From: Chamaelirium japonicum
Lineage: Eukaryota; Streptophyta; Magnoliopsida; Liliales; Melanthiaceae
Direction: 5' to 3'
Length of the DNA stretch: 64,000 bases
Assembly: GCA_947650365.1 (NCBI GenBank)
Contig: CANTAL010000202.1
Coordinates: 248,001 to 312,000, forward strand
Shown: positions 1-64,000 of the stretch, piece by piece
Position numbering within the stretch: the stretch's first letter is position 1
Layout: every line of letters starts with the position of its first letter
Notes under the pieces: model-generated
The model's database searches: none
The model's input: the letters and a program-made list of their open reading frames with translations, nothing else
What the model was told of the DNA's origin: nothing
Translations under genes and position numbers: made by a program

Positions 1-65
1 AATTAAATGACGGTCTAAGACCGTCCTATAATCTGCGACCGAGTTTTTGATTTAAAAACACTTAG

Positions 66-133
66 TTTATAATTTTTTTTTGAGAACCCCTCCTCTCAGG
101 AGGGAGGGTTTGGCGGACCCCAACCAGACTTAG
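66..133 (-). mobile_element. 68-bp insertion with A-tail and short target duplication
   Basis: Relative to other C-to-A spacers, 68 extra bases interrupt CACTTAGTTAATAA. ACTTAG or a near match flanks both sides (60-65 and 128-133). On the minus strand the insert has a GGTTGGGGTCCGCC start, a CCCTCC/GGAGGG foldback and an A-run of nine. The tail plus direct repeat suggests a small retroposon fragment (SINE or LINE 3' end). Family not identified. Confidence 0.4.
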
Positions 134-410
134 TTAATAATTTAAAAACATTTATTTTATAATAAACGACGGTCGGGGACCGTCGTTTATTAAAGGACGG
201 TCGAAGGCCGTATTTTATTTATGTCCTATTTTCTTTGTTCGGTGTAGTGTGACCAGGTGTTTCGAGACGTCCGATGGGCCGGAAAAAGGGTCGTAAGTGT
301 GGGAGATATAGCTCAATCGTGAACCCATGGTGATCGTCCAAACGATCGTTTAGGCAGGTGGGCCACGACCCACTGAAAAGTGGCAAAAAAAAAAGATGGT
401 TTTGTTAAAC

Positions 411-528
411 GGGTGCAACACGAGGACTTCCCAGGAGGTCACCCATCCTAGTACTACTCTCGCCCAAGCACGCTTGACTGCGGAGTTCTGATGGGATCCG
501 GTGCTTTAGTGCTGGTATGATCGCACCC
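411..528 (-). rRNA. 5S rRNA, class A copy 1
   Basis: 5S ribosomal RNA, transcribed by RNA polymerase III and part of the large ribosomal subunit. The minus strand starts GGGTGCGATCATACCAGCAC and ends GTGTTGCACCC. Box A (AAGCGTGCTTGGGCG) and box C (GGATGGGTGACCTCCTGGG) are readable; the base before the start is C, as in other plants, and a T-run follows about 15 nt after the 3' end. One difference from the window consensus (TAACT to TGACT on the plus strand, in box A). Confidence 0.85.
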
Positions 529-2686
529 GTTATGCAATCGTCACGAATTACACTTGTACATCATTTCGTGAGAGTGGAATCACGTTTGACCATGTGTGGA
601 ATCCGGTTTGACCAGGTGTTTCGAGACGTACGATGGGCCGGAAAAAGCATCGTAAGTGCCAGCGATGGAGCTCGATCGCGAACCCGTGGTGCTAGTCGAA
701 ACGATCGTTTAGGCAGGTGGGCCCCGACCTGCCGAAAAGTGGCAAAAAAAAAGAGAGAGATGGTTTTTGTAAAATGGGTGCAACACGATGACTTCCCAGG
801 AGCTCACCCGTCCTGGTACTACTCTCGTCCAAGAGGACACTTGACTACTGAATTAAATCAGGAAGGGAAAACCCTCATAACAAATTTAGGGCAGATTAAA
901 TGACGGTCTATGACCATCCTATAATCTGCGACAGAGTTTTTAATTTAAAATGATTTAGTCAGTAATAAATGACGGTCGAGGACCGTCGTTTAATTAAAAA
1001 CCCTTCGTTTAATAAAGGATGCTCTAAGACCTTTGTTTAATTATGTCCTATTTTTTTTGTTTTGGTGCAGCGGGACAAGGTGTTTCGGGACGTTCGGTGG
1101 GCCGGAAAAAAGGCCTTAAGTGCGGGCAATGGAGCTCAATCGCGAACCTGTGGTGCTCGTCGAAACGATCGTTTAGGCAGGTGGGCCACGACCCACTGAA
1201 AAAGTGGCAAAAAAAAGAAGATGATTTCGTAAAATGGGTGCAACACGGGGACTCTCGCCCAAGCACGCTTAACTGCGGAGTTCGGATGGGATCCGGTGCT
1301 TTTGTGCTAGTATGATAGCACCCGTTATGCATTTGTCACGAATTACACGTATCCATCACTTCGTGATTTGTAACAAATTTAGGGCAAATTAAATGACGGT
1401 CTAAGACCGTCCTATAATCTGCGACCGAGTTTTTGATTTAAAAACACTTAGTTAATAATTTAAAAACATTTATTTTATAATAAACGACGGTCGGGGACCG
1501 TCGTTTATTAAAGGACGGTCGAAGGCCGCAGTTTATTTATGTCCTATTTTCTTTGTTCGGTGTAGTGTGACCAGGTGTTTCGAGACGTACGATGGGCCGG
1601 AAAAAGCATCGTAAGTGCCAGCAATGGAGCTCGATCGCGAACCCGTGGTGCTAGTCGAAACGATCGTTTAGGCAGGTGGGCCACTACCTGCCGAAAAGTG
1701 GCAAAAAAAAAGAGAGAGATGGTTTTTGTAAAATGGGTGCAACACGATGACTTCCCAGGAGCTCACCCGTCCTGGTACTACTCTCGTCCAAGACGACACT
1801 TGACTACTGAATTAAATCAGGAAGGGAAAACCCTCATAACAAATTTAGGGCAGATTAAATGACGGTCTATGACCATCCTATAATCTGCGACAGAGTTTTT
1901 AATTTAAAATGATTTAGTCAGTAATAAATGACGGTCGAGGACCGTCGTTTAATTAAAAACCCTTCGTTTAATAAAGGATGGTCTAAGACCTTTGTTTATT
2001 TATGTCCTATTTTTTTTGTTTTGGTGTAGCGGGACAAGGTGTTTCGGGACGTTCGGTGGGCCGGAAAAAGGGCCTTAAGTGCGGGCAATGGAGCTCAATC
2101 GCGAACCTGTGGTGCTCGTCGAAACGATCGTTTAGGCAGGTGGGCCACGACCCACTGAAAAAGTGGCAAAAAAAAAAGATGGTTTCGTAAAATGGGTGCA
2201 ACACGGGGACTCTCGCCCAAGCATGCTTAACTGCGGAGTTCGGATGGGATCCGGTGCTTTTGTGCTGGTATGATAGCACCCGTTATGCATTTGTCACGAA
2301 TTACATGTATCCATCACTTCGTGATTTGTAACAAATTTAGGGCAAATTAAATGACGGTCTAAGACCGTCCTATAATCTGCGACCGAGTTTTTGATTTAAA
2401 AACACTTAGTTAATAATTTAAAAACATTTATTTTATAATAAACGACGGTCGGGGACCGTCGTTTATTAAAGGACGGTCGAAGGCCGTAGTTTATTTATGT
2501 CCTATTTTCTTTGTTCGGTGTAGTGTGACCAGGTGTTTCGAGACGTCCGATGGGCCGGAAAAAGGGTCGTAAGTGCGGGAGATATAGCTCAATCGTGAAC
2601 CCATGGTGATCGTCCAAACGATCGTTTAGGCAGGTGGGCCACGACCCACTGAAAAGTGGCAAAAAAAAAAGATGGTTTTGTAAAAC

Positions 2687-3371
2687 GGGTGCAACACGAG
2701 GACTTCCCAGTAGGGGTGAGCGTCGGTTTTGTCGGTCGGTTTCGGTGTCGGTTTTGTCGGTTTTATTTTTTTTCGGTTTTCGAAAAATCAAAACCGAAAC
2801 CGAAACCGAAATGGTCGGTTTTTGTCGGTTCGGTGTGATCGGTTTTCGGTTCGGTTTCGGTTAATATGAGTTATGCTAGAACCCTTGGCTCTTAAATCTT
2901 AATCGTCAGTTCATCACAAATAAGTGGATGATTATGTTCTTCCATAGTGCCAAAATGAAAGTTCAAAGCAAAATCAACCGACGTTCACTCGTTTGAAGCA
3001 TTGTAGATGTAACATAATTACTTCGTACTTGCACTTACTTGAAACAAAAGTATTATGGCCGTTGTGTTTATGATTTAAGAAGTCGGGTCGGTTTTTTCGA
3101 TTTCGGTTCGGTGTTTCATACCCGGGAACCGAAACCGAAACCGATTTAATCGGTTTTGTCGGTTCGGTTTGTTTTCGGTTCGGTTTGATGTTCGGTTCGG
3201 TTATTTCGGTTAAATTTTGGTCGGTTTCGGTTCGGTTAGGCGGTTCGGGTCGGTTTTTGCACAGCCCTACTTCCCAGGAGGTCACCCATCCTTGTACTAC
3301 TCTCGCCCAAGCACGCTTAACTGCGGAGTTCTTATTGGAACCGGTGCTTTAGTGCTGGTATGACCGCACCC
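2687..3371 (-). pseudogene. 5S rRNA, class A copy 2, split by a MITE
   Basis: The 5S gene is interrupted at 2711-3269 by a 559-bp transposon, with CTTCCCAG duplicated on both sides (2703-2710 and 3270-3277). The break lies just past box C on the minus strand. The rest also differs from consensus at several bases (TTATTGGAACC, GACCGCACC). A transcript would carry the insert or stop in its T-runs, so it is not functional. Confidence 0.93.
2711..3269. mobile_element. hAT-type MITE
   Basis: 559-bp non-autonomous DNA transposon with 11-bp imperfect terminal inverted repeats, TAGGGGTGAGC on the left and GCACAGCCCTA on the right (reverse complement TAGGGCTGTGC). A perfect 8-bp target duplication CTTCCCAG flanks it. 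The 8-bp duplication and TAGGG-type ends fit the hAT superfamily. Both arms are packed with GGTTCGGTTTCGGT-type subterminal repeats in both orientations around an AT-rich centre. No transposase frame. Confidence 0.88.
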
Positions 3372-4754
3372 GTTATGCAATCGTCACGAATTACACTTGT
3401 ACATCATTTCGTGAGAGTGGAATCACGTTTGACCATGTGTGGAATCCGGTTTGACCAGGTGTTTCGAGACGTACGATGGGCCGGAAAAAGCATCGTAAGT
3501 GCCAGCGATGGAGCTCGATCGCGAACCCGTGGTGCTAGTCGAAACGATCGTTTAGGCAGGTGGGCCACGACCTGCCGAAAAGTGGCAAAAAAAAAGAGAG
3601 AGATGGTTTTTGTAAAATGGGTGCAACACGATGACTTCCCAGGAGTTCACCCATCCTGGTACTACTCTCGTCCAAGTGGACACTTGACTACTGAATTAAA
3701 TCAGGAAGGGAAAACCCTCATAACAAATTTAGGGCAGATTAAATGACGGTCTATGACCATCCTATAATCTGCGACAGAGTTTTTAATTTAAAATGATTTA
3801 GTCAGTAATAAATGACGGTCGAGGACCGTCGTTTAATTAAAAACCCTTCGTTTAATAAAGGATGGTATAAGACCTTTGTTTATTTATGTCCTATTTTTTT
3901 TTGTTTTGGTGTAGCGGGACAAGGTGTTTCGGGACGTTCGGTGGGCCGGAAAAAGGGCCTTAAGTGCGGGCAATGGAGCTCAATCGCGAACCTGTGGTGC
4001 TCGTCGAAACGATCGTTTAGGCAGGTGGGCCACGACCCACTGAAAAAGTGGAAAAAAAAAGATGGTTTCGTAAAATGGGTGCAACACGGGGACTCTCGCC
4101 CAAGCACGCTTAACTGCGGAGTTCGGATGGGATCCGGTGCTTTTGTGCTGGTATGATAGCACCCGTTATGCATTTGTCACGAATTACACGTATCCATCAC
4201 TTCGTGATTTGTAACAAATTTAGGGCAAATTAAATGACGGTCTAAGACCGTCCTATAATCTGCGACAGAGTTTTTGATTTTAAAACACTTAGTTAATAAT
4301 TTAAAAACATTTATTTTATAATAAACGACGGTCGGGACCGTCGTTTATTAAAGGACGGTCGAAGGCCGCAGTTTATTTATGTCCTATTTTCTTTGTTCGG
4401 TGTAGTGTGACCAGGTGTTTCGAGACGTCCGATGGGCCGGAAAAAGGGTCGTAAGTGCGGGAGATATAGCTCAATCGTGAACCCATGGTGATCGTCCAAA
4501 CGATCGTTTAGGCAGGTGGGCCACGACCCACTGAAAAGTGGCAAAAAAAAAAGATGGTTTATTTATGTCCTATTTTCTTTGTTCGGTGTAGTGTGACCAG
4601 GTGTTTCGAGACGTCCGATGGGCCGGAAAAAGGGTCGTAACTGCGGGAGATATAGCTCAATCGTGAACCCATGGTGATCGTCCAAACGATCGTTTAGGCA
4701 GGTGGGCCATGACCCACTGAAAAGTGGCAAAAAAAAAAGATGGTTTTGTAAAAC

Positions 4755-4872
4755 GGGTGCAACACGAGGACTTCCCAAGAGGTCACCCATCCTAGTACTA
4801 CTCTCGCCCAAGCACGCGTAACTGCGGAGTTCTGATGGGATCCGGTGCTTTAGTGCTGGTATGATCGCACCC
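4755..4872 (-). rRNA. 5S rRNA, class A copy 3
   Basis: Full length. Two differences from consensus on the plus strand: CCAAGAGG for CCAGGAGG, and CACGCGTAACT for CACGCTTAACT (box A). Confidence 0.8.
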
Positions 4873-6074
4873 GTTATGCAATCGTCACGAATTACACTTG
4901 TACATCATTTCGTGAGAGTGGAATCACGTTTGACCATGTGTGGAATCCGGTTTGACCAGGTGTTTCGAGACGTACGATGGGCCGGAAAAAGCATCGTAAG
5001 TGCCAGCGATGGAGCTCGATCGCGAACCCGTGGTGCTAGTCGAAACGATCGTTTAGGCAGGTGGGCCACGACCTGCCGAAAAGTGGCAAAAAAAAAAGAG
5101 AGAGATGGTTTTTGTAAAATGGGTGCAACACGATGACTTCCCAGGAGCTCACCCGTCCTGGTACTACTCTCGTCCAAGAGGACACTTGACTACTGAATTA
5201 AATCAGGAAGGGAAAACCCTCATAACAAATTTAGGGCAGATTAAATGACGGTCTATGACCATCCTATAATCTGCGACAGAGTTTTTAATTTAAAATGATT
5301 TAGTCAGTAATAAATGACGGTCGAGGACCGTCGTTTAATTAAAAACCCTTCGTTTAATAAAGAATGGTCTAAGACCTTTGTTTATTTATGTCCTATTTTT
5401 TTTTGTTTTGGTGTAGCGGGACAAGGTGTTTCGGGACGTTCGGTGGGCCGGAAAAAGGGCCTTAAGTGCGGGCAATGGAGCTCAATCGCGAACCTGTCGT
5501 GCTCGTCGAAACGATCGTTTAGGCAGGTGGGCCACGACCCACTGAAAAAGTGGCAAAAAAAAAAAGATGGTTTCGTAAAATGGGTGCAACACGGGGACTC
5601 TCGCCCAAGCACGCTTAACTGCGGAGTTCGGATGGGATCCGGTGCTTTTGTGCTGGTATGATAGCACCCGTTATGCATTTGTCACGAATTACACGTATCC
5701 ATCACTTCGTGAGTTGTAACAAATTTAGGGCAAATTAAATGACGGTCTAAGACCGTCCTATAATCTACGACCGAGTTTTTGATTTAAAAACACTTAGTTA
5801 ATAATTTAAAAACATTTATTTTATAATAAACAACGGTCGGGGACCGTCGTTTATTAAAGGACGGTCGAAGGCCGTAGTTTATTTATGTCCTATTTTCTTT
5901 GTTCGGTGTAGTGTGACCAGGTGTTTCGAGACGTCCGATGGGCCGGAAAAAGGGTCGTAAGTGCGGGAGATATAGCTCAATCGTGAACCCATGGTGATCG
6001 TCCAAACGATCGTTTAGGCAGGTGGGCCACGACCCACTGAAAAGTGGCAAAAAAAAAAGATGGTTTTGTAAAAC

Positions 6075-6192
6075 GGGTGCAACACGAGGACTTCCCAGGA
6101 GGTCACCCATCCTTGTACTACTCTCGCCCAAGCACGCTTAATTGCGGAGTTCTGATGGGAACCGGTGCTTTAGTGCTGGTATGATCGCACCC
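6075..6192 (-). rRNA. 5S rRNA, class A copy 4
   Basis: Full length with three differences on the plus strand: CCTTGTACTA, TTAATTGCGG and GGGAACCGG. Confidence 0.78.
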
Positions 6193-7391
6193 GTTATGCA
6201 ATCGTCACGAATTACACTTGTACATCATTTCGTGAGAGTGGAATCACGTTTGACCATGTGTGGAATCCGGTTTGACCAGGTGTTTCGAGACGTACGATGG
6301 GCCGGAAAAAGCATCGTAAGTGCCAGCGATGGAGCTCGATCGCGAACCCGTGGTGCTAGTCGAAACGATCGTTTAGGCAGGTGGGCCACGACCTGCCGAA
6401 AAGTGGCAAAAAAAAAGAGAGATGGTTTTTGTAAAATGGGTGCAACACGATGACTTCCCAGGAGCTCACCCGTCCTGGTACTACTCTCGTCCAAGAGGAC
6501 ACTTGACTACTGAATTAAATCAGGAAGGGAAAACCCTCATAACAAATTTAGGGCAGATTAAATGACGGTCTATGACCATCCTATAATCTGCGACAGAGTT
6601 TTTAATTTAAAATGATTTAGTCAGTAATAAATGACGGTCGAGGACCGTCGTTTAATTAAAAACCCTTCGTTTAATAAAGGATGGTCTAAGACCTTTGTTT
6701 ATTTATGTCCTATTTTTTTTTGTTTTGGTGTAGCGGGACAAGGTGTTTCGGGACGTTCGGTGGGCCGGAAAAAGGGCCTTAAGTGCGGGCAATGGAGCTC
6801 AATCGCGAACCTGTGGTGCTCGTCGAAACGATCGTTTAGGCAGGTGGGCCACGACCCACTGAAAAAGTGGCAAAAAAAAAAAGATGGTTTCGTAAAATGG
6901 GTGCAAAACGGGGACTCTCGCCCAAGCACGCTTAACTGCGGAGTTCGGATGGGATCCGGTGCTTTTGTGCTGGTATGATAGCACCCGTTATGCATTTGTC
7001 ACGAATTACACGTATCCATCACTTCGTGATTTGTAACAAATTTAGGGCAAATTAAATGACGGTCTAAGACCGTCCTATAATCTGCGACCGAGTTTTTGAT
7101 TTAAAAACACTTAGTTAATAATTTAAAAACATTTATTTTATAATAAACGACGGTCGGGGACCGTCGTTTATTAAAGGACGGTCGAAGGCCGCAGTTTATT
7201 TATGTCCTATTTTCTTTGTTCGGTGTAGTGTGACCAGGTGTTTCGAGACGTCCGATGGGCCGGAAAAAGGGTCGTAAGTGCGGGAGATATAGCTCAATCG
7301 TGAACCCATGGTGATCGTCCAAACGATCGTTTAGGCAGGTGGGCCACGACCCACTGAAAAGTGGCAAAAAAAAAAGATGGTTTTGTAAAAC

Positions 7392-7509
7392 GGGTGCAAC
7401 ACGAGGACTTCCCAGGAGATCACTCATCCTAGTACTACTCTCGCCCAAACACACTTAACTACGGACTTCTGATGGGATCCGGTGCTTTAGTGCTGGTATG
7501 ATCGCACCC
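7392..7509 (-). rRNA. 5S rRNA, class A copy 5, degenerate
   Basis: Full length but with about six substitutions, clustered in box C (GGAGATCACTCATCC) and box A (CCAAACACACTTAACTACGG). Probably a pseudogene by substitution. Confidence 0.7.
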
Positions 7510-8708
7510 GTTATGCAATCGTCACGAATTACACTTGTACATCATTTCGTGAGAGTGGAATCACGTTTGACCATGTGTGGAATCCGGTTTAACCAGGTGT
7601 TTCGAGACGTACGATGGGCCAGAAAAAGCATCGTAAGTGCCAGCGATGGAGCTCTATCGCGAACCCGTGGTGCTAGTCGAAACGATCGTTTAGGCAGGTG
7701 GGCCACGACCTGCCGAAAAGTGGCAAAAAAAAAGAGAGATGGTTTTTGTAAAATGGGTGCAACACGATGACTTCCCAGGAGCTCACCCGTCCTGGTACTA
7801 CTCTCGTCCAAGAGGACACTTGACTACTGAATTAAATCAGGAAGGGAAAACCCTCATAACAAATTTAGGGCAGATTAATTGACGGTCTATGACCATCCTA
7901 TAATCTGCGACAGAGTTTTTAATTTAAAATGATTTAGTCAGTAATAAATGACGGTCGAGGACCGTCGTTTAATTAAAAACCCTTCGTTTAATAAAGGATG
8001 GTCTAAGACCTTTGTTTATTTATGTCCTATTTTTTTTTGTTTTGGTGTAGCGGGACAAGGTGTTTCGGGACGTTCGGTGGGCCGGAAAAAGGGCCTTAAG
8101 TGCGGGCAATGGAGCTCAATCGCGAACCTGTGGTGCTCGTCGAAACGATCGTTTAGGCAGGTGGGCCACGACCCACTGAAAAAGTGGCAAAAAAAAAAAG
8201 ATGGTTTCGTAAAATGGGTGCAACACGGGGACTCTCGCCCAAGCACGCTTAACTGCGGAGATCGGATGGGATCCGGTGCTTTTGTGCTGGTATGATAGCA
8301 CCCGTTATGCATTTGTCACGAATTACACGTATCCATCACTTCGTGATTTGTAACAAATTTAGGGCAAATTAAATGACGGTCTAAGACCGTCCTATAATCT
8401 GCGACCGAGTTTTTGATTTAAAAACACTTAGTTAATAATTTAAAAACATTTATTTTATAATAAACGACGGTCGGGGACCGTCGTTTATTAAAGGACGGTC
8501 GAAGGCCGCAGTTTATTTATGTCCTATTTTCTTTGTTCGGTGTAGTGTGACCAGGTGTTTCGAGACGTCCGATGGGCCGGAAAAAGGGTCGTAAGTGCGG
8601 GAGATATAGCTCAATCGTGAACCCATGGTGATCGTCCAAACGATCGTTTAGGCAGGTGGGCCACGACCCACTGAAAAGTGGCAAAAAAAAAAGATGGTTT
8701 TGTAAAAC

Positions 8709-8826
8709 GGGTGCAACACGAGGACTTCCCAGAAGGTCACCCATCCTTGTACTACTCTCGCCTAAGCACGCTTAACTGCGGAGTTCTGATAGGAACCGGT
8801 GCTTTAGTGCTGGTATGATCGCACCC
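8709..8826 (-). rRNA. 5S rRNA, class A copy 6, degenerate
   Basis: Full length with about five differences: CCAGAAGGTC, CCTTGTACTA, GCCTAAGC and GATAGGAACC on the plus strand. Confidence 0.72.
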
Positions 8827-10025
8827 GTTATGCAATCGTCACGAATTACACTTGTACATCATTTCGTGAGAGTGGAATCACGTTTGACCATGTGTGGAAT
8901 CTGGTTTGACCAGGTGTTTCGAGACGTACGATGGGCCCGAAAAAGCATCGTAAGTGCCAGCGATGGAGCTCGATCGCGAACCCGTGGTGCTAGTCGAAAC
9001 GATCGTTTAGGCAGGTGGGCCACGACCTGCCGAAAAGTGGCAAAAAAAAAGAAAGAGATGGTTTTTGTAAAATGGGTGCAACACGATGACTTCCCAGAAG
9101 CTCACCCGTCCTGGTACTAATCTCGTCCAAGAGGACACTTGACTACTGAATTAAATCAGGAAGGGAAAACCCTCATAACAAATTTAGGGCAGATTAAATG
9201 ACGGTCTATGACCATCCAATAATCTGCGACAGAGTTTTTAATTTAAAATGATTTAGTCAGTAATAAATGACGGTCGAGGACCCTCGTTTAATTAAAAACC
9301 CTTCGTTTAATAAAGGATGGTCTAAGACCTTTGTTTATTTATGTCCTATTTTTTTTGTTTTGGTGTAGCGGGACAAGGTGTTTCGGGACGTTCGGTGGGC
9401 CGGAAAAATGGCATTAAGTGCGGGCAATGGAGCTCAATCGCGAACCTGTGGTGCTCGTCGAAACGATTGTTTAGGCAGGTGGGCCACGACCCACTGAAAA
9501 AGTGGCAAAAAAAAAAAGATGGTTTCGTAAAATGGGTGCAACACGGGGACTCTCGCCCAAGCACGCTTAACTGCGGAGTTCGGATGGGATCCGGTGCTTT
9601 TGTGCTGGTATGATACACCCGTTATGCATTTGTCACGAATTACACGTATCCATCACTTCGTGATTTGTAACAAATTTAGGGCAAATTAAATGACGGTCTA
9701 AGACCGTCCTATAATCTGCGACCGAGTTTTTGATTTAAAAACACTTAGTTAATAATTTAAAAACATTTATTTTATAATAAACGACGGTCGGGGACCGTCG
9801 TTTATTAAAGGACGGTCGAAGGCCGTAGTTTATTTATGTCCTATTTTCTTTGTTCGGTGTAGTGTGACCAGGTGTTTCGAGACGTCCGATGGGCCGGAAA
9901 AAGGGTCGTAAGTGCGGGAGATATAGCTCAATCGTGAACCCATGGTGATCGTCCCAACAATCGTTTAGGCAGGTGGGCCACGACCCACTGAAAAGTGGCA
10001 AAAAAAAAAGATGGTTTTGTAAAAC

Positions 10026-10142
10026 GGGTGCAACACGAGGAATCCCAGGAGGTCACCCATCCTAGTACTACTCTCGCCCAAGCACGCTTAACTGCGGAGT
10101 TCTGATGGGATCCGATGCTTTAGTGCTGGTATGATCACACCC
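10026..10142 (-). rRNA. 5S rRNA, class A copy 7, 1-bp deletion
   Basis: 117 bp: GGAATCCC replaces GGACTTCCC near the 3' end. Also GATCCGATGC, and GATCACACCC at the transcript start. Confidence 0.72.
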
Positions 10143-22249: not shown

Positions 22250-22254
22250 ATCTT

Positions 22255-52454: not shown

Positions 52455-52459
52455 ATCTT

Positions 52460-52477: not shown

Positions 52478-52591
52478 ATCGATAGAGGTCTTACCCACAC
52501 CTCTACCGACTCCTATTCAGCTTGTGGTGACGAGCCACAAGTCCTCCAAATCAACCTCAACGCCTTCATCACGCCGACATCAACTCGCTTA

Positions 52592-54250
52592 ATGGTGAAG
52601 GCCAGCACCAACCCACCAAAGGCGGGTGCTGACCGGACAATCGACGTGCTAATCGAAGAAGAACAAGAAGTCTCGGTTGCAACCAACCGAAGAAATGTTC
52701 ATAAGCGACTGGGGCCACAAGGAAGTCATCCGGGAAGCCGCAGCAATTGGCAGGACCCACCTTTCCCAAGGCAATGATCTGGCAAAGAGCACGCCACCCA
52801 AGGAGACAACAGTTCAGCTACATACCAAATTTCGACTGCTGATTTCCAGCTGTTGAACCTCCTCAAGAGGAACACAGCCCTCGAGCAAGAGAGGGATTCC
52901 CTAAAGAAGGCGGTTGAAAGAGCGAGGGTTGTGGCCCATAACTCTCTAGGTACTGATGAAGACCAACCAAGGACTCGCCCGGCCGTGAGTCATCATCTTG
53001 AAGAACCACATGTGCCGAAAATCGAGAGGCGTCAGGTATCCACACAAGCACCAAGGCAAACGGTGTGGGATCGCCTCAACGTCGATGGTGCGCCAAGCTA
53101 TCGCCGAGAATGATCACCTCAGTCAACAGGGTCTACTAGACATTCTATCCCTTTGCACACGAAAGCAACAGATGCCCGCGAGCTGCTCAACCGACGAAGG
53201 TATACTGCCAACGTAGGACGCCGCCATCAAGACCGTAGGCAGCTAATCACCTCGATGGGGCCACTGCATCCCAAGGTTCTTGCAACACCATTTCCTATGG
53301 GTTGGCGAACACCGAGCCTGCCAAAGTTCAACTGCATCCTGGGAGACCCTGCTCTCCATATCCTAGCCTACAAGCAGGCCCTGACGCCCTACGAGTATGA
53401 GAACCATATTCTTTGCCGTATGTTTGCGGGAAGCCTCGAGGGACCTGCCCTCGACTGGTACTACACACTGCCTACTGGTACGGTGACCACATTCAAAGAA
53501 TTGCCTGAAATCTTCATGGACCATTATCGGCTAAACTTAAAGTCAGAAAAGAAGCTGGATACACTCTACCGGCTGAAGATGGGCTCCGATGAGTCTCTAA
53601 GGAGCTTCACGATGAGGTTTCGTAATGAGCACTCTGAGCTCACCGGTCAGTCCCATAATGAGGAGGCCATCATGCTGGCATTCCAGAATGCTATCCGACC
53701 AGAGCTCCACGTATACACCGACTTCATCCGGTATCCTCCCAGTACCTTAAGCTTAGAGGCAATGTTCAAGCGCATACAGCGAGAGATAATGGTGGAAGAC
53801 AATCAGCAGGCCAGAAGACTACGCGAGCCCCGCGAGTCTCGTGACTCCCGACATAAGAAAGATGATGAAGCTCCGAATGAAGCACACTACAAGAAGTCTG
53901 CCCATGCCGCGTCCGACCAAAAGGTACAGGCCAAAAGGTACAATGAAGATCCGAAGGCCCCTCCAGCAGAAAAGAGGCGAACTCCAAGGGAGCAAAGGGT
54001 GTTCACTGAGCAGAACACCTCCATTGAAGACATCTTCGTCTACTTGCAGAACGAGCCCTTTTGCAAGTGGCCACAGCCTCTCCCTCCAAATTCCGACCAG
54101 GCGAGAGATACGACAGCCTACTGTGAGTTTCATCGCAGCCATGGCCACCCAACCTCTACATGTCAGAAGCTAAAGCATCACATAGAAGACCTGATCCAAG
54201 AAGGGCGGCTCGATGGCTATCTCGCTAATAAGGAACTAGGTCGAGAGTAG
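52592..54250 (+). pseudogene. Retrotransposon gag with two in-frame TGA codons, copy 2
   Basis: Same frame and same two stops as copy 1 (52775-52777 and 53111-53113). A few residues differ (LRHTADV to RRYTANV, EKRQTP to EKRRTP). No new stop or frameshift in the 365-residue segment at 53153-54250. Confidence 0.85.
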
Positions 54251-54402
54251 GAAAGGCAGCAGCAGTGGAGAAAGAAAGTCAATGTAATACATGTATGCAT
54301 AAAGTGTAACTACAACTTTGTTATATCAATAAAGTGTCTTTTTTTTTTCTCAAAATCTACTCTCGAAGTTCGATTCCACCATATTAAGGCATAAAAAAAA
54401 AG

Positions 54403-55166
54403 GGCTCCTGACAACCCAGGTCAACCAAAGATCTTCGATTCCGCCCATTCAAGTCGGAAGCTCGAAGGTAAGTCGGCTACGCCCTCTCGAGGCTAAAGTC
54501 CGATAAAAAGGCTCCTGGCAACCCAGGTCAACCAAAGACCTTCGATTCTGCCCATTCAAGTCGGAAGCTCGAAGGCAATTCGGCTACGCCCTCTCGAGGC
54601 TAAAGTCCGATAAAAATGCTCCTGGCAACCCAGGTCAACCAAAGACCTTCGATTCCGCCCATTCAAGTCGGAAGCTCGAAGGTAATTCGGCTACGCCCTT
54701 TCAAGGCAAAAGTCCGATAAAACGGCTCCTGGCAACCCAGGTCAATCAAAGACCTTCGATTCCGCCCATTCAAGTCGGAAGCTCGAAGGCAATTCGGCTA
54801 CGCCCTCTCGAGGCTGAAGTCCGATAAAAGGCTCCTGGCAACCCAGGTCAACCAAAGACCTTCGATTCCGCCCGTTCAAGTCGGAAGCTCGAAGGCAATT
54901 CGGCTACGCCCTCTCGAGGCTAAAGTCCGATAAAAGGCTCCTGGCAACCCAGGTCAACCAAAGACCTTCGATTCCGCCCGTTCAAGTCGGAAGCTCGAAG
55001 GCAATTCGGGTACGCCCTCTCGAGGCTAAAGTCCGATAAAAAGCTCCTGGTAACCCAGGTCAACCAAAGACCTTCGATTCCACCCATTCAAGTCGGAAGC
55101 TCGAAGGCAATTTGGCTACGCCCTTTCAAGGCAAAAGTCAGATAAAAATGCTCCTGACAATCCAGG
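54403..55166 (+). repeat. Internal tandem repeat I, copy 2
   Basis: Near-identical duplicate of the ~107-bp repeat block, with the same number of units. Confidence 0.9.
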
Positions 55167-55257
55167 TCATGCTAAACTATCAACTATATTTATCCGAGGC
55201 GATGAGAATAAGTCCAAGGCAGACTTCGCCGCTTAGACATGCACCAAGTTCAAGGAG

Positions 55258-55637
55258 ACATCCTTGGCACTCGAAGATAAAGTCCGAGGTAACCAATGCC
55301 TCGGCAATCTATAAGCCCAAGGCCCTGCCCTTGGTACTCGAAGACATAGGCCGAGGCGACCAATGCCTCGGCACTCTACAAGCCCAAGGCCCAGCCCTTG
55401 GCACTCGAAGACAAAGTCTGAGGCGACCAATGCCTTGGCACTCTACAAGCCCAAGGCCCAGCCCTTGGCACTCGAAGACAAAGTCCGAGGCGACCAGCGC
55501 CTCGGCACTCTACAAGCCCAAGGCCCAGTCCTTGGCACTTGAAGAAAAAGCTCGAGGCGACCAACGCCTTGGCACTCTACAAGCCCAAGGCCCAGCCCTT
55601 GGCATTCGAAGACAAAGTCCAAGACGTCGTCGCCGAC
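55258..55637 (+). repeat. Internal tandem repeat II, copy 2
   Basis: Duplicate of the 67-bp repeat block. One nearby base differs (GGCATTCGATC for GGAATTCGATC just after it). Confidence 0.88.
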
Positions 55638-56116
55638 GTATTGGCATTCGATCAAAAGTCCAAGCTTAGTCTTGTCACTCAGGTCCAGGCATGAGATTAT
55701 CACTGGCCATCACCTTTTTTCGACGACTAACGGTTCCAAACCGGTCAGGGGGTGGTTGGTCTGACTCTGTCAGTGCGTGTCTCCACACTGGTGCAGTCGA
55801 CGGTGGATAACATGGGATAAAATGGTGCTTCCTTGATCCGGGCCAAGTCAACACCCTCACGCGACTGTAGTACCTGGCGAATACAGTAACCAGGTGCGGT
55901 AGTACATTGGATGAAGACTAGCTGGCCATCATGCGGCGTCATCCTAGATTATCTCTAAGAAGCCCCCTCAAATATAGCATTGTCCCTCGCCGACGTCCCT
56001 GCGCACCATTTTTTTTCCCGAAAAAGTGTTTGTTTCAAATGGGGCTGAAATTCGAAAAACACACTATTTTCAATACCGACACTTTTTGGCCTCTTCTAGC
56101 AGCCCCAATAATGGGG
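55638..56116 (+). other. Unique interior sequence between repeats II and III, copy 2
   Basis: Duplicate of 25432-25910; no gene seen. Carries the ACCTGG...CCAGGT foldback with one base changed (GGCGAATACAG). Confidence 0.6.
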
Positions 56117-57304
56117 TGTCGGCATCAACAAGCAGCCCCCCCTCGGTTTTGCACAAAAACCGAGTGGGAAAGGGGTGACGGCACACCATCAGCTACAACC
56201 ACCCCTCGGTTTCGTCAGAAAACCGAGAGGGGGTGTGTGTCGGCATCAACAAGCAGCCCCCCCTCGGTTTTGCACAAAAACTGAGTGGGGAAGGGGTGAC
56301 GGCACACCATCAGCTATAACCACCCCTCAGTTTCGTCAGAAAACCGAGAGGGGGTGTGTGTCGGCATCAACAAGCAGCCCCCCCTCGGTTTCGCACAAAA
56401 ACCGAGTGGGGAAGGGGTGACGACACAGCATCAGCTACAGCCACCACTCGGTTTCGTCAGAAAACCGAGAGGGGGTGTGTGTCGGCATCAACAAGCAGTC
56501 CCCCCCTCAGTTTCGCATAAAAACCGAGTGGGAAAGGGGTGACGGCACACCATCAGCTACAACCACCCCTCGGTTTCGTCAGAAAACCGAGAGGGGGTGT
56601 GTGTCGGCATCAACAAGCAGCTCCCCCCTCGGTTTCGCAGAAAAACCAAGTGGGGAGGGGGTGATGGCACACCATCAGCACACCACTCGGTTTCGTCAGA
56701 AAACCGAGAGGGGGTGTGTGTTGGCATCAACAAGCAGCCCCCCCCTCGGTTTCGCACAAAAATCGAGTGGGGAAGGGGTGACGGCACACCATCAGCTACA
56801 ACCACCCCTTGGTTTCATCAGAAAACCGAGAGGGGGTGTGTGTCGGCATCAACAAGCAGCTCCCCCCTCGGTTTCGCAGAAAAACCAAGTGGGGAGGGGG
56901 TGACGGCACACCATCAGCACACCACTCGGTTTCGTCAGAAAACCGAGAGGGGGTGTGTGTTGGCATCAACAAGCAGCCCCCCCTCGGTTTCATAGAAAAA
57001 CCAAGTGGGGAGGGGGTGACGGCACACCATCAACACACTACTCGGTTTCGTCCGAAAACCGAGAGGGTGTGTGTGTTGGCATCAATAAGCAGCCCCCCCC
57101 TTTCGCACAAAAACCGAGTGGGGAGGGGGTGACGGCACACCATCAGCTACAACCATCCCTCGGTTTCGTCAGAAAACCAAGAGGGGGTATGTGTCGACAC
57201 CAACAAGCAGCCCCCCCTCGGTTTCGCAAAAAAACCAAGTGGGAAGGGGTGACGGCACACCATCAGCAGCACACCCCTCGGTTTCGTCAGAAAACCGAGA
57301 GGAG
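56117..57304 (+). repeat. Internal tandem repeat III, copy 2
   Basis: Duplicate of the ~121-bp hairpin-rich block with the same unit order, including the shortened units. Scattered single-base changes break some stems (CCCTCAGTTTCGC, CCTTGGTTTCATC). Confidence 0.9.
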
Positions 57305-57642
57305 GGGTGCTCGGCGTCATCCAAACCTATTAGTCAACCCGATTCAGGTGTCATCCACACACAAGGATCAGCCAAAGACGAAGAGTTATCTTCCATTGGG
57401 TTGGTTGAATAGCATCTCCACCAAACCTATTGAGTTGGCTGTACAAACTTCACAAGCAAAATTCCTCCTTCTTATCTGGGGGTGGACTCGTGGTAACCGC
57501 CGCGTCATCGCTAGGGCCCGACTGCAATCCCTAGTGAATACAGTAACTAGGTGCAGTTGGGTGTCAAACAGAGACGGATGAGTTACCGCGTATCGATGCC
57601 TCTTCAAGACGCGCGTAGGACACTCGGCCAATGCGTTCTTTA

Positions 57643-58166
57643 GAGTCATCTCTTCATGAAGGTGATTATCGGAAAAGTTACTCGTCAAGGTGTACGATGT
57701 TTCACGTCCACTTTGACCGGTTTTTCGGCGCCTACACAATGACACCTTATACACATTCAGCCGACGTGTGTATGAAAAGTTACGGCTGCCGGAAGTTTTC
57801 AAGATTCATCTCTCTATAAAGGTGAATACTGGAAAAGTTACTCGTCAAGGCGAACAATGTTTTACGTCTACTTTGACCGGTTTTTCGGCGCCTACACAAC
57901 GACACCTTATACGCATTCATCCGACACGTGTATGAAAAGTTATGACTGTTAGAAGGTTTCAAGGTCTTTTTCCGCGAAGACATGCATTGGAAATGTTACT
58001 TGCAAAGGTGCCCGACGCTTTACGTCCACTTTAACCAGTTTTTCAGCGCCAACGCAACGGCATATTATACGCATTGATCTGGCTCACGTATGAAAAACTA
58101 CGACTTTTCAAGTTCATTTTGTTCGAAGACTAGCATCAGAATAATTACACGGTAACGACGGTTACG
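57643..58166 (+). repeat. Internal tandem repeat IV, copy 2
   Basis: Duplicate of the ~160-bp repeat block; differs at GTTACTTGCAAAGG in the third unit. Confidence 0.85.
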
Positions 58167-58609
58167 CTCACGCCCTCAATTTGGTGTGTTACGCGCCCAA
58201 CTCCTAGCAGGCCGAGCGCCGGGTATGAAAGAAGAACTCGCACCTCTCCCGGCCCGTGCGTAGGTGCTCTTGGCGACAACCGACCAGAATGGGAATAGGG
58301 GGCCGAATGAACCAAACACCCTCCCGCACATTCTCCTCATGTAATTCGTCACGCGGCGGCGATGACGAACCGAACTCGTCCTCCCCCTCCGCGCACTCCG
58401 TCTCGCAGCGGACCGAGGCGACCCCTCCGTGCGTGCTGTCTCACAGTGACCCGAGGTAACCCCGTGTGTCCTCTTCGCAACAGCCCTTCTCTTTTCTCCT
58501 CCGGCTCGCAGTACCATGGGGAGAAGATCCGACTCCACCCCCCACGTGCACCCTCGACGCGCAGCAACGGAGAGAGGGAGAGGCCACAGCGGGGATCCGT
58601 GAACTCCCG

Positions 58610-58846
58610 ATGATCAATGATGCCTCATCCTCCAACCCGCCGCCGCTGCCGTCCGAGCTGCTAGCGCCGGGGTTCAGGTTCCACCCCAACGATGAGGAGC
58701 TCGTCAGCTGCTACCTGAAGCGGAAGGTCTCCGGCCGGCCCCTCCGCGTCGACGCCATCGCTGAGGTCGACCTCTACAAGGCCGAGCCGTGGGACCTCCC
58801 CGCCATGTCCCGGCTCCGGAGCCGGGACATGGAGTGGTACTTCTCC
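58610..58846 (+). pseudogene. Captured NAC-domain transcription factor fragment, copy 2
   Basis: Same 79-codon fragment with an open frame; I see only a synonymous change (GGTCGG to GGCCGG in the codons of SGRP). Identical break after WYFS, confirming that capture preceded the duplication. Confidence 0.88.
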
Positions 58847-59065
58847 GGCCCGCGACCGGCCGCCGACCGCACCAACCCGCCTGCCATGCTCCCTGCTGCG
58901 CCAGCCCGAGCCCGGCCTCCGCCTCACCAGCCCGCCTGTCGTGCCTCCTGCTGCGCCAGCCCGAGCCCGGCCTACGCCGCATCGACCCACCGCCGTTGCC
59001 CGCCGACCTCTACGCTGTCGCTGCTGTTGCTGCTGTAGCACGTGAACAAAAAAAAAAAAAACAGA

Positions 59066-59311
59066 GCAGAGCAGAGAAAAGGAAAGAGAGAAAGGGTTCG
59101 CTGCACACACGTGAATATAAGCCAAAGAGGAAAGAAAGAGAGAGAGAGAAAGGAAAGAGAGAGCGGGGTTCGCTGCACTCACGTAAAGCCAAAGAAGAAA
59201 GAGAGAGAGAGAGAGAGAAAGGAAAGAGAGAGCGGGGTTCGCTGCACTCACGTAAAGCCAAAGAAGAAAGAGAGAGAGAGAGAGAAAGGAAAGAGAGGAA
59301 CGCTGCTCACA
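59066..59311 (+). repeat. GA-rich tandem repeat, copy 2
   Basis: Duplicate of the ~70-bp GA-rich repeat with three GGTTCGCTGCAC copies. Confidence 0.85.
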
Positions 59312-59388
59312 CCGAAAAGCACCAACCCCACGACCCCACTCATCACGGACGTTCGGCTCGGTATCCTCTCGGTTTGGAAAAAGGAGAA

Positions 59389-59706
59389 GGGTCTCGGTAC
59401 CCTCTCGGTATCCTCTCCGTATCCACTCGGTCGAAAAACACACTGCTTTTTCGGAAACACCCCCTTGCAAAACCGAGACTTTTTGGCTTGCACCAAAAGG
59501 GTCTCGGTACCCTCTCGGTATCCACTCGGTCGGAAGACGCACTGCTTTTTCAGAAACACCCCCTTGCAAAACCGAGACTTTTTGGCTTGCACCAAAAGGG
59601 TCTCGGTATCCTCTCGGTATCCACTCGGTCGGAAAACGCACTGCTTTTTCGGAAACACCCCCTTGCAAAACTGAGACTTTTTGGCTCGCGCCAAAAGGGT
59701 CTCGGC
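59389..59706 (+). repeat. Internal tandem repeat V, copy 2
   Basis: Duplicate of the ~100-110 bp repeat block. Confidence 0.85.
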
Positions 59707-59827
59707 ATCGGCGGAAGAAGGCTCTGCTAATACGAACCGCGGCACCGACGGCCCTCGCCAACCATGCCAGGGTCCTAAGGCGTTTGCACCTCGGAATCCC
59801 AGCCGACCCAGGGGGTCCTGACCCGAC

Positions 59828-59837
59828 TGGGAGGGGG
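59828..59837 (+). promoter_or_regulatory. Polypurine tract of retrotransposon copy 2
   Basis: TGGGAGGGGG, four bases before the 3' LTR. Confidence 0.8.
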
Positions 59838-59841
59838 TAAC

Positions 59842-60441
59842 TGTGGGTGCAAAAATTGTACCGGACCGGATCAGAGCGGCATGGGCCCGCGCAACGGCCC
59901 AAGTGGGTAAGCCCGCCCGGGTTCATGGGCTCACTCTACGAGGCTTGCAGATCAAGCCCTCCCCCTTATTGGGCCCGAACAACGGCCCAATAAGGGCCCA
60001 GCAAGGAGGCCCAGAACCAGTACCACATCATCAGCGCCACGTCATCACTGCCATATCGGGCACATGCCTACGCTATAAAAGGACCCCCAAGGCATCCAGG
60101 GAGGGGGTTGGTCATTCGATAAGGGGAAGAGAGGATTTAGAGCTATAGCTTACTTCTCTCCTCCTAGTTTCTTTTCTTGTTGCTCCGTGCAACCCCCATT
60201 GTAAAAAGCTTCTCTCGGCCTGTCAAGAGAACGCTTCCCACCTTTATATTTATTATAGTGGAAACCAGGTGGCACCTCTCGCCTGGAGACGTAGGTCGTA
60301 AGACCGAACTTCGACAACAACTCCGTGTGTCATCTCTCTCCTTCTCAACTTTATAATCTCTAACTCTACAAACCATCCTCATTCAATCAAGGCTGTGGGG
60401 CGGGGTTCCCGATCAAGACGGCTCGGAAATTTCTCCCCACA
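59842..60441 (+). repeat. 3' LTR of retrotransposon copy 2
   Basis: 600 bp; one base differs by eye from the 3' LTR of copy 1 (CTGTCAAGAG for CTGTCGAGAG). Confidence 0.95.
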
Positions 60442-60585
60442 ACGTCCGATGGGCCGGAAAAAGGGTCGTAAGTGCGGGAGATATAGCTCAATCGTGAACC
60501 CATGGTGATCGTCCAAACGATCGTTTAGGCAGGTGGGCCACGACCCACTGAAAAGTGGCAAAAAAAAAAGATGGTTTTGTAAAAC

Positions 60586-60703
60586 GGGTGCAACACGAGG
60601 ACTTCCCAGGAGGTCACCCATCCTAGTACTACTCTCGCCCAAGCATGCTTAACTGCGGAGTTCTGATGGGATCCGGTGCTTTAGTGCTGGTATGATCGCA
60701 CCC
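60586..60703 (-). rRNA. 5S rRNA, class A copy 31
   Basis: Full length; one difference (GCATGCTTA), the same as its duplicate at 30380. Confidence 0.85.
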
Positions 60704-61904
60704 GTTATGCAATCGTCACGAATTACACTTGTACATCATTTCGTGAGAGTGGAATCACGTTTGACCATGTGTGGAATCCGGTTTGACCAGGTGTTTCGAG
60801 ACGTACGATGGGCCGGAAAAAGCATCGTAATTGCCAGCGATGGAGCTCGATCGCGAACCCGTGGTGCTAGTCGAAACTATCGTTTAGGCAGGTGGGCCAC
60901 GACCTGCCGAAAAGTGGCAAAAAAAAAGAGAGAGATGGTTTTTGTAAAATGGGTGCAACACGATGACTTCCCAGGAGCTCACCCGTCCTGGTACTACTCT
61001 CGTCCAAGAGGACACTTGACTACTGAATTAAATCAGGAAGGGAAAACCCTCATAACAAATTTAGGGCAGATTAAATGACGGTCTATGACCATCCTATAAT
61101 CTGCGACAGAGTTTTTAATTTAAAATGATTTAGTCAGTAATAAATGACGGTCTAGGACAGTCGTTTAATTAAACACCCTTCGTTTAATAAAGGATGGTCT
61201 AAGACCTTTGTTTATTTATGTCCTATTTTTTTTGTTTTGGTGTAGCGGGACAAGGTGTTTCGGGACGTTCGGTGGGCCGGAAAAAGGGCCTTAAGTGCAG
61301 GCAATGGAGCTCAATCGCGAACCTGTGGTGCTCGTCGAAACGATCGTTTAGGCAGGTGGGCCACGACCCACTGAAAAAGTGGCAAAAAAAAAAAAGATGG
61401 TTTCGTAAAGTGGGTGCAACACGGGGACTCTCGCCCAAGCACGCTTAACTGCGGAGTTCGGATGGGATCCGATGCTTTTGTGCTGGTATGATAGCACCCG
61501 TTATGCATTTGTCACGAATTACACGTATCCATCACTTCGTGATTTGTAACAAATTTAGGGCAAATTAAATGACGGTCTAAGACCGTCCTATAATCTGCGA
61601 CCGAGTTTTTGATTTAAAAACACTTAGTTAATAATTTAAAAACATTTATTTTATAATAAACGACGGTCGGGGACCGTCGTTTATTAAAGGACGGTCGAAG
61701 GCCGAAGTTTATTTATGTCCTATTTTCTTTGTTCGGTGTAGTGTGACCAGGTGTTTCGAGACGTCCGATGGGCCGGAAAAAGGGTCGTAAGTGCGGGAGA
61801 TAAAGCTCAATCGTGAACCCATGGTGATCGTCCAAACGATCGTTTAGGCAGGTGGGCCACGACCCACTGAAAAGTGGCAAAAAAAAAAGATGGTTTTGTA
61901 AAAC

Positions 61905-62022
61905 GGGTGCAACACGAGGACTTCCCAGTAGGTCACCCATCCTAGTACTACTCTCGCCCAAGCACGCTTAACTGCGGAGTTCTGATGGGATCCGGTGCTT
62001 TAGTGCTGGTATGATCGCACCC
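61905..62022 (-). rRNA. 5S rRNA, class A copy 32
   Basis: Full length; one difference (CAGTAGG for CAGGAGG on the plus strand, in box C). Confidence 0.83.
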
Positions 62023-63220
62023 GTTATGCAATCGTCACGAATTACACTTGTACATCATTTCGTGAGAGTGGAATCACGTTTGACCATGTGTGGAATCCGG
62101 TTTGACCAGGTGTTTCGAGACGTACGATGGGCCGGAAAAAGCATCGTAATTGCCAGCGATGGAGCTCGATCGCGAACCCGTGGTGATAGTCGAAACGATC
62201 GTTTAGGCAGGTGGGCCACGACCTGCCGAAAAGTGGCAAAAAAAAAGAGAGATGGTTTTTGTAAAATGGGTGCAACACGATGACTTCCCAGGAGCTCACC
62301 CGTCCTGGTACTACTCTCGTCCAAGAGGACACTTGACTACTGAATTAAATCAGGAAGGGAAAACCCTCATAACAGATTTAGGGCAGATTAAATGACGGTC
62401 TATGACCATCCTATAATCTGCGACAGAGTTTTTAATTTAAAATGATTTAGTCAGTAATAAATGACGGTCTAGGACCGTCGTTTAATTAAAAACCCTTCGT
62501 TTAATAAAGGATGGTCTAAGACCTTTGTTTATTTATGTCCTATTTTTTTTTTTTTGGTGTAGCGGGACAAGGTGTTTCGGGACGTTCGGTGGGCCGGAAA
62601 AAGGGCCTTAAGTGCGGGCAATGGAGCTCAATCGCGAACCTGTGGTGCTCGTCGAAACGATCGTTTAGGCAGGTGGGCCACGACCCACTGAAAAAGTGGC
62701 AAAAAAAAAAAGATGGTTTCGTAAAATGGGTGCAACACGGGGACTCTCGCCCAAGCACGCTTAACTGCAGAGTTCGGATGGGATCCGGTGCTTTTGTGCT
62801 GGTATGATAGCACCCGTTATGCATTTGTCACGAATTACACGTATCCATCACTTCGTGATTTGTAACAAATTTAGGGCAAATTAAATGACGGTCTAAGACC
62901 GTCCTATAATCTGCGACCGAGTTTTTGATTTAAAAACACTTAGTTAATAATTTAAAAACATTTATTTTATAATAAACGACGGTCGGGGACCGTCGTTTAT
63001 GAAAGGACGGTCGAAGGCCGTAGTTTATTTATGTCCTATTTTCTTTGTTCGGTGTAGTGTGACCAGGTGTTTCAAGACGTCCGATGGGCCGGAAAAAGGG
63101 TCGTAAGTGCGGGAGATATAGCTCAATCGTGAACCCATGGTGATCGTCCAAACGATCGTTTAGGCAGGTGGGCCACGACCCACTGAAAAGTGGCAAAAAA
63201 AAAAGATGGTTTTGTAAAAC

Positions 63221-63336
63221 GGGTGCAACACGAGGACTTCCCAGGAGGTCACATCCTAGTACTACTCTCGCCCAAGCACGCTTAACTGCGGAGTTCTGAT
63301 GGGATCCGGTGCTTAAGTGCTGGCATGATCGCACCC
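63221..63336 (-). rRNA. 5S rRNA, class A copy 33, 2-bp deletion in box C
   Basis: 116 bp: GGTCACATCC replaces GGTCACCCATCC, a two-base loss inside box C absent from its duplicate at 33014. Also CTTAAGTG and GGCATGAT. Probably inactivated after the duplication. Confidence 0.8.
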
Positions 63337-64000
63337 GTTATGCAATCGTCACGAATTACACTTGTACATCATTTCGTGAGAGTGGAATCACGTTTGACCA
63401 TGTGTGGAATCCGGTTTGACCAGGTGTTTCGAGACGTACGATGGGCCGGAAAAAGCATCGTAAGTGCCAGCGATGGAGCTCGATCGCGAACCCGTGGTGC
63501 TAGTCGAAACGATCGTTTAGGCAGGTGGGCCACGACCTGCCGAAAAGTGGCAAAAAAAAAGAGAGAGATGGTTTTTGTAAAATGGGTGCAACACGATGAC
63601 TTCCCAGGAGCTCACCCGTCCTGGTACTACTCTCGTCCAAGAGGACACTTGACTACTGAATTAAATCAGGAAGGGAAAACCCTCATAACAAATTTAGGGC
63701 AGATTAAATGACGGTCTATGACCATCCTATAATCTGCGACAGAGTTTTTAATTTAAAATGATTTAGTCAGTAATAAATGACGGTCGAGGACCGTCGTTTA
63801 ATTAAAAACCCTTCGTTTAATAAAGGATGGTCTAAGACCTTTGTTTATTTATGTCCTATTTTTTTTGTTTTGGTGCAGCGGGACAAGGTGTTTCGGGACG
63901 TTCGGTGGGCCGGAAAAAGGGCCTTAAGTGCGGGCAATGGAGCTCAATCGCGAACCTGTGGTGCTCGTCGAAACGATCGTTTAGGCAGGTGGGCCACGAC

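Follow-up and report, generated by a model that had tools for sequence, protein, structure and literature searches.

A higher-order repeat of one full-length and two partial 5S genes in Chamaelirium japonicum, with an excess of variable sites in the full-length gene

Introduction

Concerted evolution is usually said to purge dead copies from ribosomal DNA (rDNA) and to keep its genes cleaner than its spacers. The locus described here departs from both expectations. It is a 64-kb stretch of the Chamaelirium japonicum genome (contig CANTAL010000202.1, positions 248,001 to 312,000), referred to below as the window, and it is made up of a plant 5S rDNA array with all of its 5S genes on the minus strand. 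The repeating unit is a trimer of about 1,318 bp that contains a full 5S gene (A), a 5'-truncated 5S (B), and a 5S from which 30 nt including box C have been deleted (C). The trimer is homogenised as a whole, and A holds more variable sites than the spacers that surround it. Taken together, it is rather likely that this is a genuine 5S higher-order repeat, homogenised as a trimer, in which the likeliest source of the excess in A is mutation linked to RNA polymerase III (Pol III). The analysis also covered sequence from two other contigs of the same 1.52-Gb genome, C12 (200 kb) and C173 (50 kb).

Organization of the 5S array

The first-pass annotation of the window had proposed a trimer of about 1.3 kb, and this is confirmed. 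Repeated 20-mers most often recur at distances of 1317, 1319, 30,206, and 1318 bp from their nearest copy, so the proposed 1.3-kb period is present. Gene calling gives 33 A (one interrupted by an insertion), 34 B, and 33 C, not counting 9 shorter 5S fragments that were excluded. With 7 larger breaks set aside, 89 of the 92 neighbouring calls follow a fixed A-B-C order. A scan of the window against Rfam returned 67 matches at the gathering score, all of them to RF00001 (5S) and all on the minus strand; no other family reached that score, and no 35S gene was found. About 17.7 kb of the window consists of insertions and does not belong to the array. The array segments, one regular trimer with its monomers, and the best-scoring A copy are located as follows.

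1..21649, minus strand: 5S trimer array, segment 1, ending at the left target-site duplication of a retrotransposon and including a hAT-like insertion at 2711-3269
30236..51854, minus strand: 5S trimer array, segment 2
60442..64000, minus strand: 5S trimer array, segment 3, continuing beyond the window end
34755..36073, minus strand: example of a regular trimer, 1,319 bp
34755..34873, minus strand: A of this trimer, a full-length 5S gene (Rfam RF00001, 110.5 bits)
35121..35215, minus strand: B of this trimer, a 5'-truncated 5S with ~73 nt of gene and ~20 nt of unrelated 5' sequence
35580..35668, minus strand: C of this trimer, a 5S with the 30-nt deletion that removes box C
47294..47412, minus strand: A copy with the top Rfam score of the window, 113 bits

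The A gene is 118-119 nt long, and we take its sequence to resemble that of an angiosperm 5S gene. B retains about the last 73 nt of the gene, its 5' part having been swapped for unrelated sequence. C is 88-89 nt long, and the 30 nt missing from it have AGT at both breakpoints, as in a microhomology deletion. The positions of box A, the intermediate element (IE), and box C in A and C were assumed from the usual layout of a 5S promoter. Placed in this way, they make A the only monomer whose internal promoter (boxes A, IE, and C) is predicted to be intact, and the lesions of B and C should damage that promoter, in agreement with their earlier designation as pseudogenes. The spacers 3' of B and C are homologous to the A spacer. 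Several short palindromic GACGGTC...GACCGTC motifs in an AT-rich setting occur in the A-to-C and C-to-B spacers (e.g., window 1380-1540) and are missing from the B-to-A spacer. It is possible that these derive from an old element inserted in the ancestor of the two spacers.

Divergence within the array has two levels. When the gene and its 3' spacer are compared over 400 sampled pairs of each kind, A and C differ by 11%, A and B by 20%, and B and C by 23%; within types the values are 2.6% for A, 1.5% for B, and 0.9% for C. Trimers of one array are far closer to one another, differing by about 0.65% on C12, 0.7% in the c173a piece and 2.7% in the c173c piece (6 trimers) of C173, and 1.75% in the window. 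Because trimers of one array differ by 0.65-2.7% and the three monomers by 11-23%, the homogenised unit is the whole trimer, as had been claimed, and this unit contains three 5S-like segments instead of the single gene expected of a plant 5S array. The likeness to centromeric higher-order repeats drawn in the first-pass annotation therefore holds in form, both in the fixed order and in monomers that diverge far more than multimers. Alpha satellite higher-order repeats are made up of divergent monomers in a fixed order, with near-identical multimers and block duplications. All three features recur in the present array, which differs in that its monomers go back to a Pol III gene.

When 411 monomers of the window and C12 are placed in one tree, built from the gene and 200 bp of 3' spacer, B (support 1.0) and C (support 0.998) are recovered as clean clades, each with a single misplaced tip. 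For A, even the best split is off by 3 tips and has a support of 0.03 and a near-zero length. A is the unsupported remainder of the tree and not a third clade, and the earlier expectation of three clean clades is borne out only for B and C, although an intermixed tree was not seen either. The sole misplaced C tip is a probable product of exchange.

45601..45689, minus strand: C that is followed in the gene direction by another C and not by B

Related arrays on two further contigs

The same trimer is present on C12 and C173. In the C12 stretch, 319 5S calls divide into 108 A, 105 B, and 106 C, and the order is kept in 308 of 311 neighbours, with 109 of 112 on C173. When one mismatch is allowed, a pattern spanning the C deletion occurs at 783 genomic places, and the reversed control at 0; on C12, copies of C extend to at least 45.864 Mb. 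The A consensus is identical in the window, C12, and C173. The fraction of A copies that equal this consensus is 41/104 in the C12 stretch, 9/36 in the C173 pieces, and 1/33 in the window, and for this reason the C12 core may be the better candidate for an active array, with the window largely silent. The description of A as the live gene is sustained insofar as A alone has a seemingly intact promoter, while the live status of every A copy in the window is doubtful.

At the edge of the C12 array (45663039-45664456) there are fragments of A and C, a B that has diverged, and a gene of full length that is one of the misplaced tips of the tree, where it groups with B. B therefore has, or has exchanged with, a complete relative, and the edge monomers may preserve earlier steps in the formation of the trimer.

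Excess of variable sites in A

The first sign of unequal variation comes from whole copies in the window, where 23 of the 33 C copies and 22 of the 34 B copies are identical, while the 33 A comprise 30 distinct sequences. For site-by-site comparison, trimers were filtered to a length of 1290-1345 bp, which kept 95 intervals from the 104 full C genes on C12, 19 from 33 C in the window, and 31 from 38 C on C173. The numbers of variable sites are listed below.

C12 (95 trimers): A 50/118, C 15/88, B 14/73, spacers 179/1040
Window (19 trimers): A 35/118, C 6/88, B 5/73, spacers 124/1039
C173 (31 trimers): A 26/118, C 9/88, B 3/73, spacers 86/1040

In each array the share of variable sites within the trimer is highest in A, and C is about as variable as the spacers. 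The ratio of the A share to the spacer share is 2.46 on C12, 2.49 in the window, and 2.66 on C173 (Fisher p of 2.6e-9, 1.5e-6, and 1.9e-5, respectively). With all 145 trimers pooled it is 2.02 (75/118 against 327/1040). The excess remains in the 56 trimers of the C12 core (20/118 against 76/1040, p 0.001), and old or degenerate copies were therefore rejected as its only source. No 118-bp stretch outside A contains more than 34 variants on C12, where A has 60, or more than 28 in the window, where A has 38, and in the window the edges of the excess are sharp. A gene about 2.5 times as variable as its spacers in three arrays, where a plant 5S gene is expected to be the less variable of the two, reverses the usual gene/spacer pattern.

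Sequence and composition can be controlled for by comparing A with C, since the two share 84 matched identical bases. Among these, sites variable only in A outnumber those variable only in C by 33:10 on C12, 24:4 in the window, and 16:6 on C173 (p of 6e-4, 2e-4, and 0.05). Base composition alone was rejected as an explanation, as A and C vary to different degrees even where their bases are the same. The corresponding counts for A against B are 20:8, 9:1, and 7:2 (p of 0.04, 0.02, and 0.18), a weaker contrast than that with C. The excess of variants is accordingly centred on A and lower at matched sites in C, which has no box C, with the reservations that C173 is borderline and that on C12 the flanks are raised over 20-40 nt.

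Transcription-linked mutation as a candidate cause

The array may have originated from an ancestral single-gene 5S repeat that diverged into three monomer types. C would have lost box C through the 30-nt deletion flanked by AGT, and B would have lost the first ~45 nt of the gene plus its 5' flank. One A-B-C block would then have been amplified. Unequal exchange would now homogenise it as a 1.32-kb trimer, in part through duplications of whole blocks together with the transposon insertions in them. Because its internal promoter appears intact and its sequence is angiosperm-like, A is or was presumably the transcribed gene, with B and C carried along. The likeliest cause of its excess would be a mutation rate raised via Pol III transcription or promoter occupancy, either by transcription-associated mutagenesis or by hindered repair. 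The A consensus would stay intact through the turnover of whole trimers together with presumed selection on the array as a whole. From the sequence we infer that A, unlike C, is transcribed, that the excess would be mutation caused by transcription, and that selection would maintain the A consensus.

The intact Pol III promoter suggests itself as the simplest link between A and its excess. Additional mutation fits the data better than copying or artefact because of four properties of the variants. First, their number per A copy is Poisson-like, with variance/mean values of 1.09, 0.88, and 0.96 in the three arrays. Second, the share of singletons is like that of the spacers on C12 (47/60 in A, 150/192 in spacers) and C173 (17/28 and 53/91). 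Third, a base matching B or C is present in just 12 of the 126 A variants, and copying from B or C was rejected as the main source on this ground. Fourth, a duplicated block in the window, described below, contains three pairs of A; two of the pairs share variants absent from the other A copies of the window, and the third pair shares a variant that occurs in one further copy. The excess is also found in all sequence contexts, with values in A and spacers of 0.55 and 0.25 for CG, 0.51 and 0.20 for CHG, 0.30 and 0.14 for CHH, and 0.21 and 0.08 for A/T. Methylation alone was rejected, as A/T sites are raised too. Transcription-linked mutation as the cause of the excess is nevertheless held only tentatively, at somewhat less than an even chance.

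A number of observations weigh against it. The spectrum of A variants is like that of the spacers (54% transitions against 50%), and a comparison of strands across the three arrays, with C>T at 33 of 96 C sites and G>A at 25 of 105 G sites, gives a p of 0.12. The ratio of A to spacers is equal in the degraded window array (1/33 consensus copies) and on C12 (41/104), though activity should differ between them. The internal promoter shows no depletion of A variants (37/117 sites against 74/237, p 1.0); because promoter sites are not spared, constraint on single copies of A is not visible. Variability is somewhat more frequent at A sites differing from B or C than at the remaining A sites in all three arrays, at 12/22 against 38/96, 8/23 against 27/95, and 7/23 against 19/95. 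Homoplasy of shared A variants is 0.83 against 0.70 in the spacers on C12 and in the window, with 0.23 against 0.24 on C173, and singletons in the window are 28/38 in A and 112/131 in the spacers (p 0.14). The contrast between A and C on C173 is borderline (p 0.05), and on C12 the edges of the excess are not sharp, with 0.3 variants/site still present in the bins lying 20 nt upstream of A and 40 nt downstream of it. Finally, nucleotide diversity on C12 is higher in B (0.0198) than in A (0.0148), and in the core 0.0163 against 0.0075, owing to a few common variants. Because B exceeds A in this measure, the claim made here for A is restricted to numbers of variable sites.

Alternative explanations

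It is possible, though somewhat doubtful, that all three monomers are dead in the window and that the array is a relic of a live one elsewhere (e.g., the C12 core), in which case A would differ by accident. The scarcity of consensus A copies in the window compared with C12, the higher divergence of its trimers (1.75% against 0.65%), and the presence of two copies of an 8.6-kb transposon insertion are all consistent with a relic. What this leaves unexplained is that A exceeds the spacers by a near-equal factor in every array, and the A consensus of the window is identical to those of C12 and C173.

Ectopic gene conversion is a less probable source and on balance an unlikely one. Copies of 5S elsewhere in the genome that share the gene with A, and not the spacers, would feed variants into A, and the excess does peak over the gene, where homology to a foreign 5S would lie. 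The spacer-like spectrum would be expected if the variants arose elsewhere, and both the slightly higher homoplasy of shared A variants in two of the three arrays and the somewhat greater variability of A sites differing from B or C point the same way. Conversion should leave variants clustered in tracts, but they are Poisson-like over the copies. C, with its 84 bases matched to A, should be converted as well, yet it is less variable. The spacer-like singleton share of A on C12 and C173 and the few variants with a B or C base (12/126) also argue against it.

Arrays of 5S are hard to assemble, and the A variants could in principle be largely artefacts of assembly or polishing introduced by other 5S reads. 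This is quite improbable: each of the three A pairs in the duplicated block shares a variant, and two of them share variants that the window's remaining A copies lack; doubletons on C173 lie four trimers apart in A (5/9) as in the spacers (19/28); and the ratio of A to spacers recurs in three contigs.

That B and C are parts of a 5S-carrying Cassandra retrotransposon fused into the array is highly improbable and was rejected. Such elements do carry 5S in their long terminal repeats (LTRs) and cluster at 5S loci, but their conserved primer-binding motif, as given in the accessible part of the source (PMC7215508), is on neither strand of the window or of the 200 kb of C12, and the spacers after B and C are homologous to that of A.

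Insertions and block duplications

The window contains two copies of one retrotransposon insertion, the second of which arose by duplication of the surrounding block.

21650..30235, plus strand: LTR retrotransposon copy 1, with LTRs of ~602 bp that have 10 differences, target-site duplication ACGTC, inside an A-to-C spacer
51855..60441, plus strand: LTR retrotransposon copy 2, the same insertion via block duplication, with 9 differences between its LTRs
51500..64000: duplicate of ~21300-33800, offset ~30.2 kb

Alignment of 20401-33795 with 50605-64000 (13.4 kb) gives 99.5% identity, with about 97% left of 21300. Since this identity takes in both copies together with their flanks, the block duplication is younger than the retrotransposon insertion. 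If a substitution rate of 1.3e-8 per site per year is assumed from rice, which may not be the rate of this plant, the insertion would be about 0.6 million years old and the duplication 0.15-0.2 million years old. C12 has two elements of 8.5-8.6 kb that share a TTGTT duplication and an equal position in the trimer and are 98.95% identical with their flanks, the result of the same kind of event as the block duplication of the window. Mean divergence between trimers is nearly flat at lags of 1-12, with no period of several trimers shared by the entire array, and the block duplications are therefore local. Doubletons in the spacers show a four-trimer spacing in 19 of 28 cases on C173 and a six-trimer spacing in 9 of 32 on C12, a recurrence pointing to local duplications of several trimers.

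The retrotransposon encodes gag (Pfam Retrotrans_gag, E 6.8e-9). It also carries a piece of a host NAC gene at 28260-28832 and 58466-59038 (Pfam NAM, E 3.4e-20; the first copy was scanned). Because this NAM-domain piece sits inside an element with gag only, the retrotransposon has captured host gene sequence. No pol domain was found among all 15 open reading frames of at least 120 aa in copy 1, other matches being below the curated cut-offs, and a protein search with gag gave no protein at E <= 0.001. The interior of the element (24192-29503 and 54398-59709) is made up in part of unrelated tandem repeats with units of 107, 67, 121/239, 160, 55, 69, and 99 bp.

A smaller insertion, presumably of the hAT type judging from its ends and the length of its duplication, splits one A gene near the start of the window.

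2711..3269, no strand assigned: hAT-like non-autonomous insertion in an A gene, with an 8-bp target-site duplication CTTCCCAG at 2703-2710 and 3270-3277
3270..3371, minus strand: 5' part of the A gene split by this insertion, the 3' end lying near 2686-2710

A different hAT-like insertion occupies an A gene on C12 (45837395-45838331, 8-bp duplication CTCGTGTT), and a gap of equal length, the content of which was not read, follows 3.2 kb after it at 45840557-45841493. Both of the insertions that were read sit in the 3' end of A. As two independent cases, with no systematic search for such elements, they are only suggestive of a hAT-like preference for A.

Relation to known 5S systems

The first-pass annotation had stressed how unusual the array is for a plant, given that plant 5S genes normally lie in single-gene repeats. 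A unit with three 5S-like segments does depart from that norm, but less so than implied, as gnetophytes provide precedents in the available part of one account (PMC6526317). Gnetum montanum has live and dead 5S copies in one unit, and Ephedra altissima has one live and two dead 5S per unit, linked to 35S; the pseudogenes of E. altissima appear to homogenise with the genes (PMC6526317). The present array is like these units in that an intact gene and defective copies of 5S are homogenised together in each unit, and it is like E. altissima in having one intact gene and two pseudogenes. The gnetophyte evidence, as reported there, was obtained with short reads and Southern blots; for Gnetum, the account describes the long-range order as uncertain and calls for long reads (PMC6526317). 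Here, by contrast, a single contig shows the order directly across ~200 kb. Two further differences from the same account are that no 35S gene was found within the window, unlike the Ephedra linkage, and that variable sites are more numerous in the intact gene than in its dead neighbours.

Low variation in coding regions is the general rule for rDNA, several-fold according to the part of a review that was available (PMC10462631). In Esox (pikes), the 5S gene is ~3x less diverse than its spacer, with Pi of 0.0145 against 0.0508 (PMC5437419). Long tandem 5S blocks broken by other DNA, seen in long reads of the pikes, are found here as well; the gene/spacer pattern is reversed here, and the accessible portion of the Esox account contains no pseudogene-bearing multimer (PMC5437419). 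The mosaic arrays of Landoltia punctata likewise have adjacent 5S units of differing kinds, which in that case are spacer classes (PMC8264772). Their order is seemingly random in the five two-unit clones described in the part of that source available, and the gene length is constant, unlike the fixed order of three monomers in C. japonicum (PMC8264772). Cassandra elements are similar in that 5S sequence is repeated with spacers, and the array differs in the absence of the primer-binding motif, as partly described (PMC7215508), from the stretches searched. A literature search, in which most papers were not available in full, turned up neither a 5S gene that varies more than its spacer nor any account of transcription-associated mutagenesis in 5S genes. 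To the extent covered by these sources, the array shares a layout already known from gnetophytes and breaks the gene/spacer rule.

Significance

The long-range order of intact and dead 5S genes, described as unsettled for Gnetum in the part of the gnetophyte account available (PMC6526317), is read directly for one genome in these arrays. As a control copy, C lies ~0.4 kb from A, in the same unit and under the same turnover, so an effect of Pol III on the mutation rate of the inherited template is testable. The array can perhaps be regarded as a natural mutation-accumulation experiment, a view given somewhat less than an even chance. In it, A and C, the latter sharing 84 identical bases with A but lacking box C, would have been replicated and homogenised side by side hundreds of times, and promoter-intact A would have mutated 2-3x faster than its surroundings. 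If true, the array would provide direct evidence from the germ line that genes served by Pol III are mutated by its transcription or by occupancy of their promoters, and it would be the turnover of the rDNA that keeps the consensus clean.

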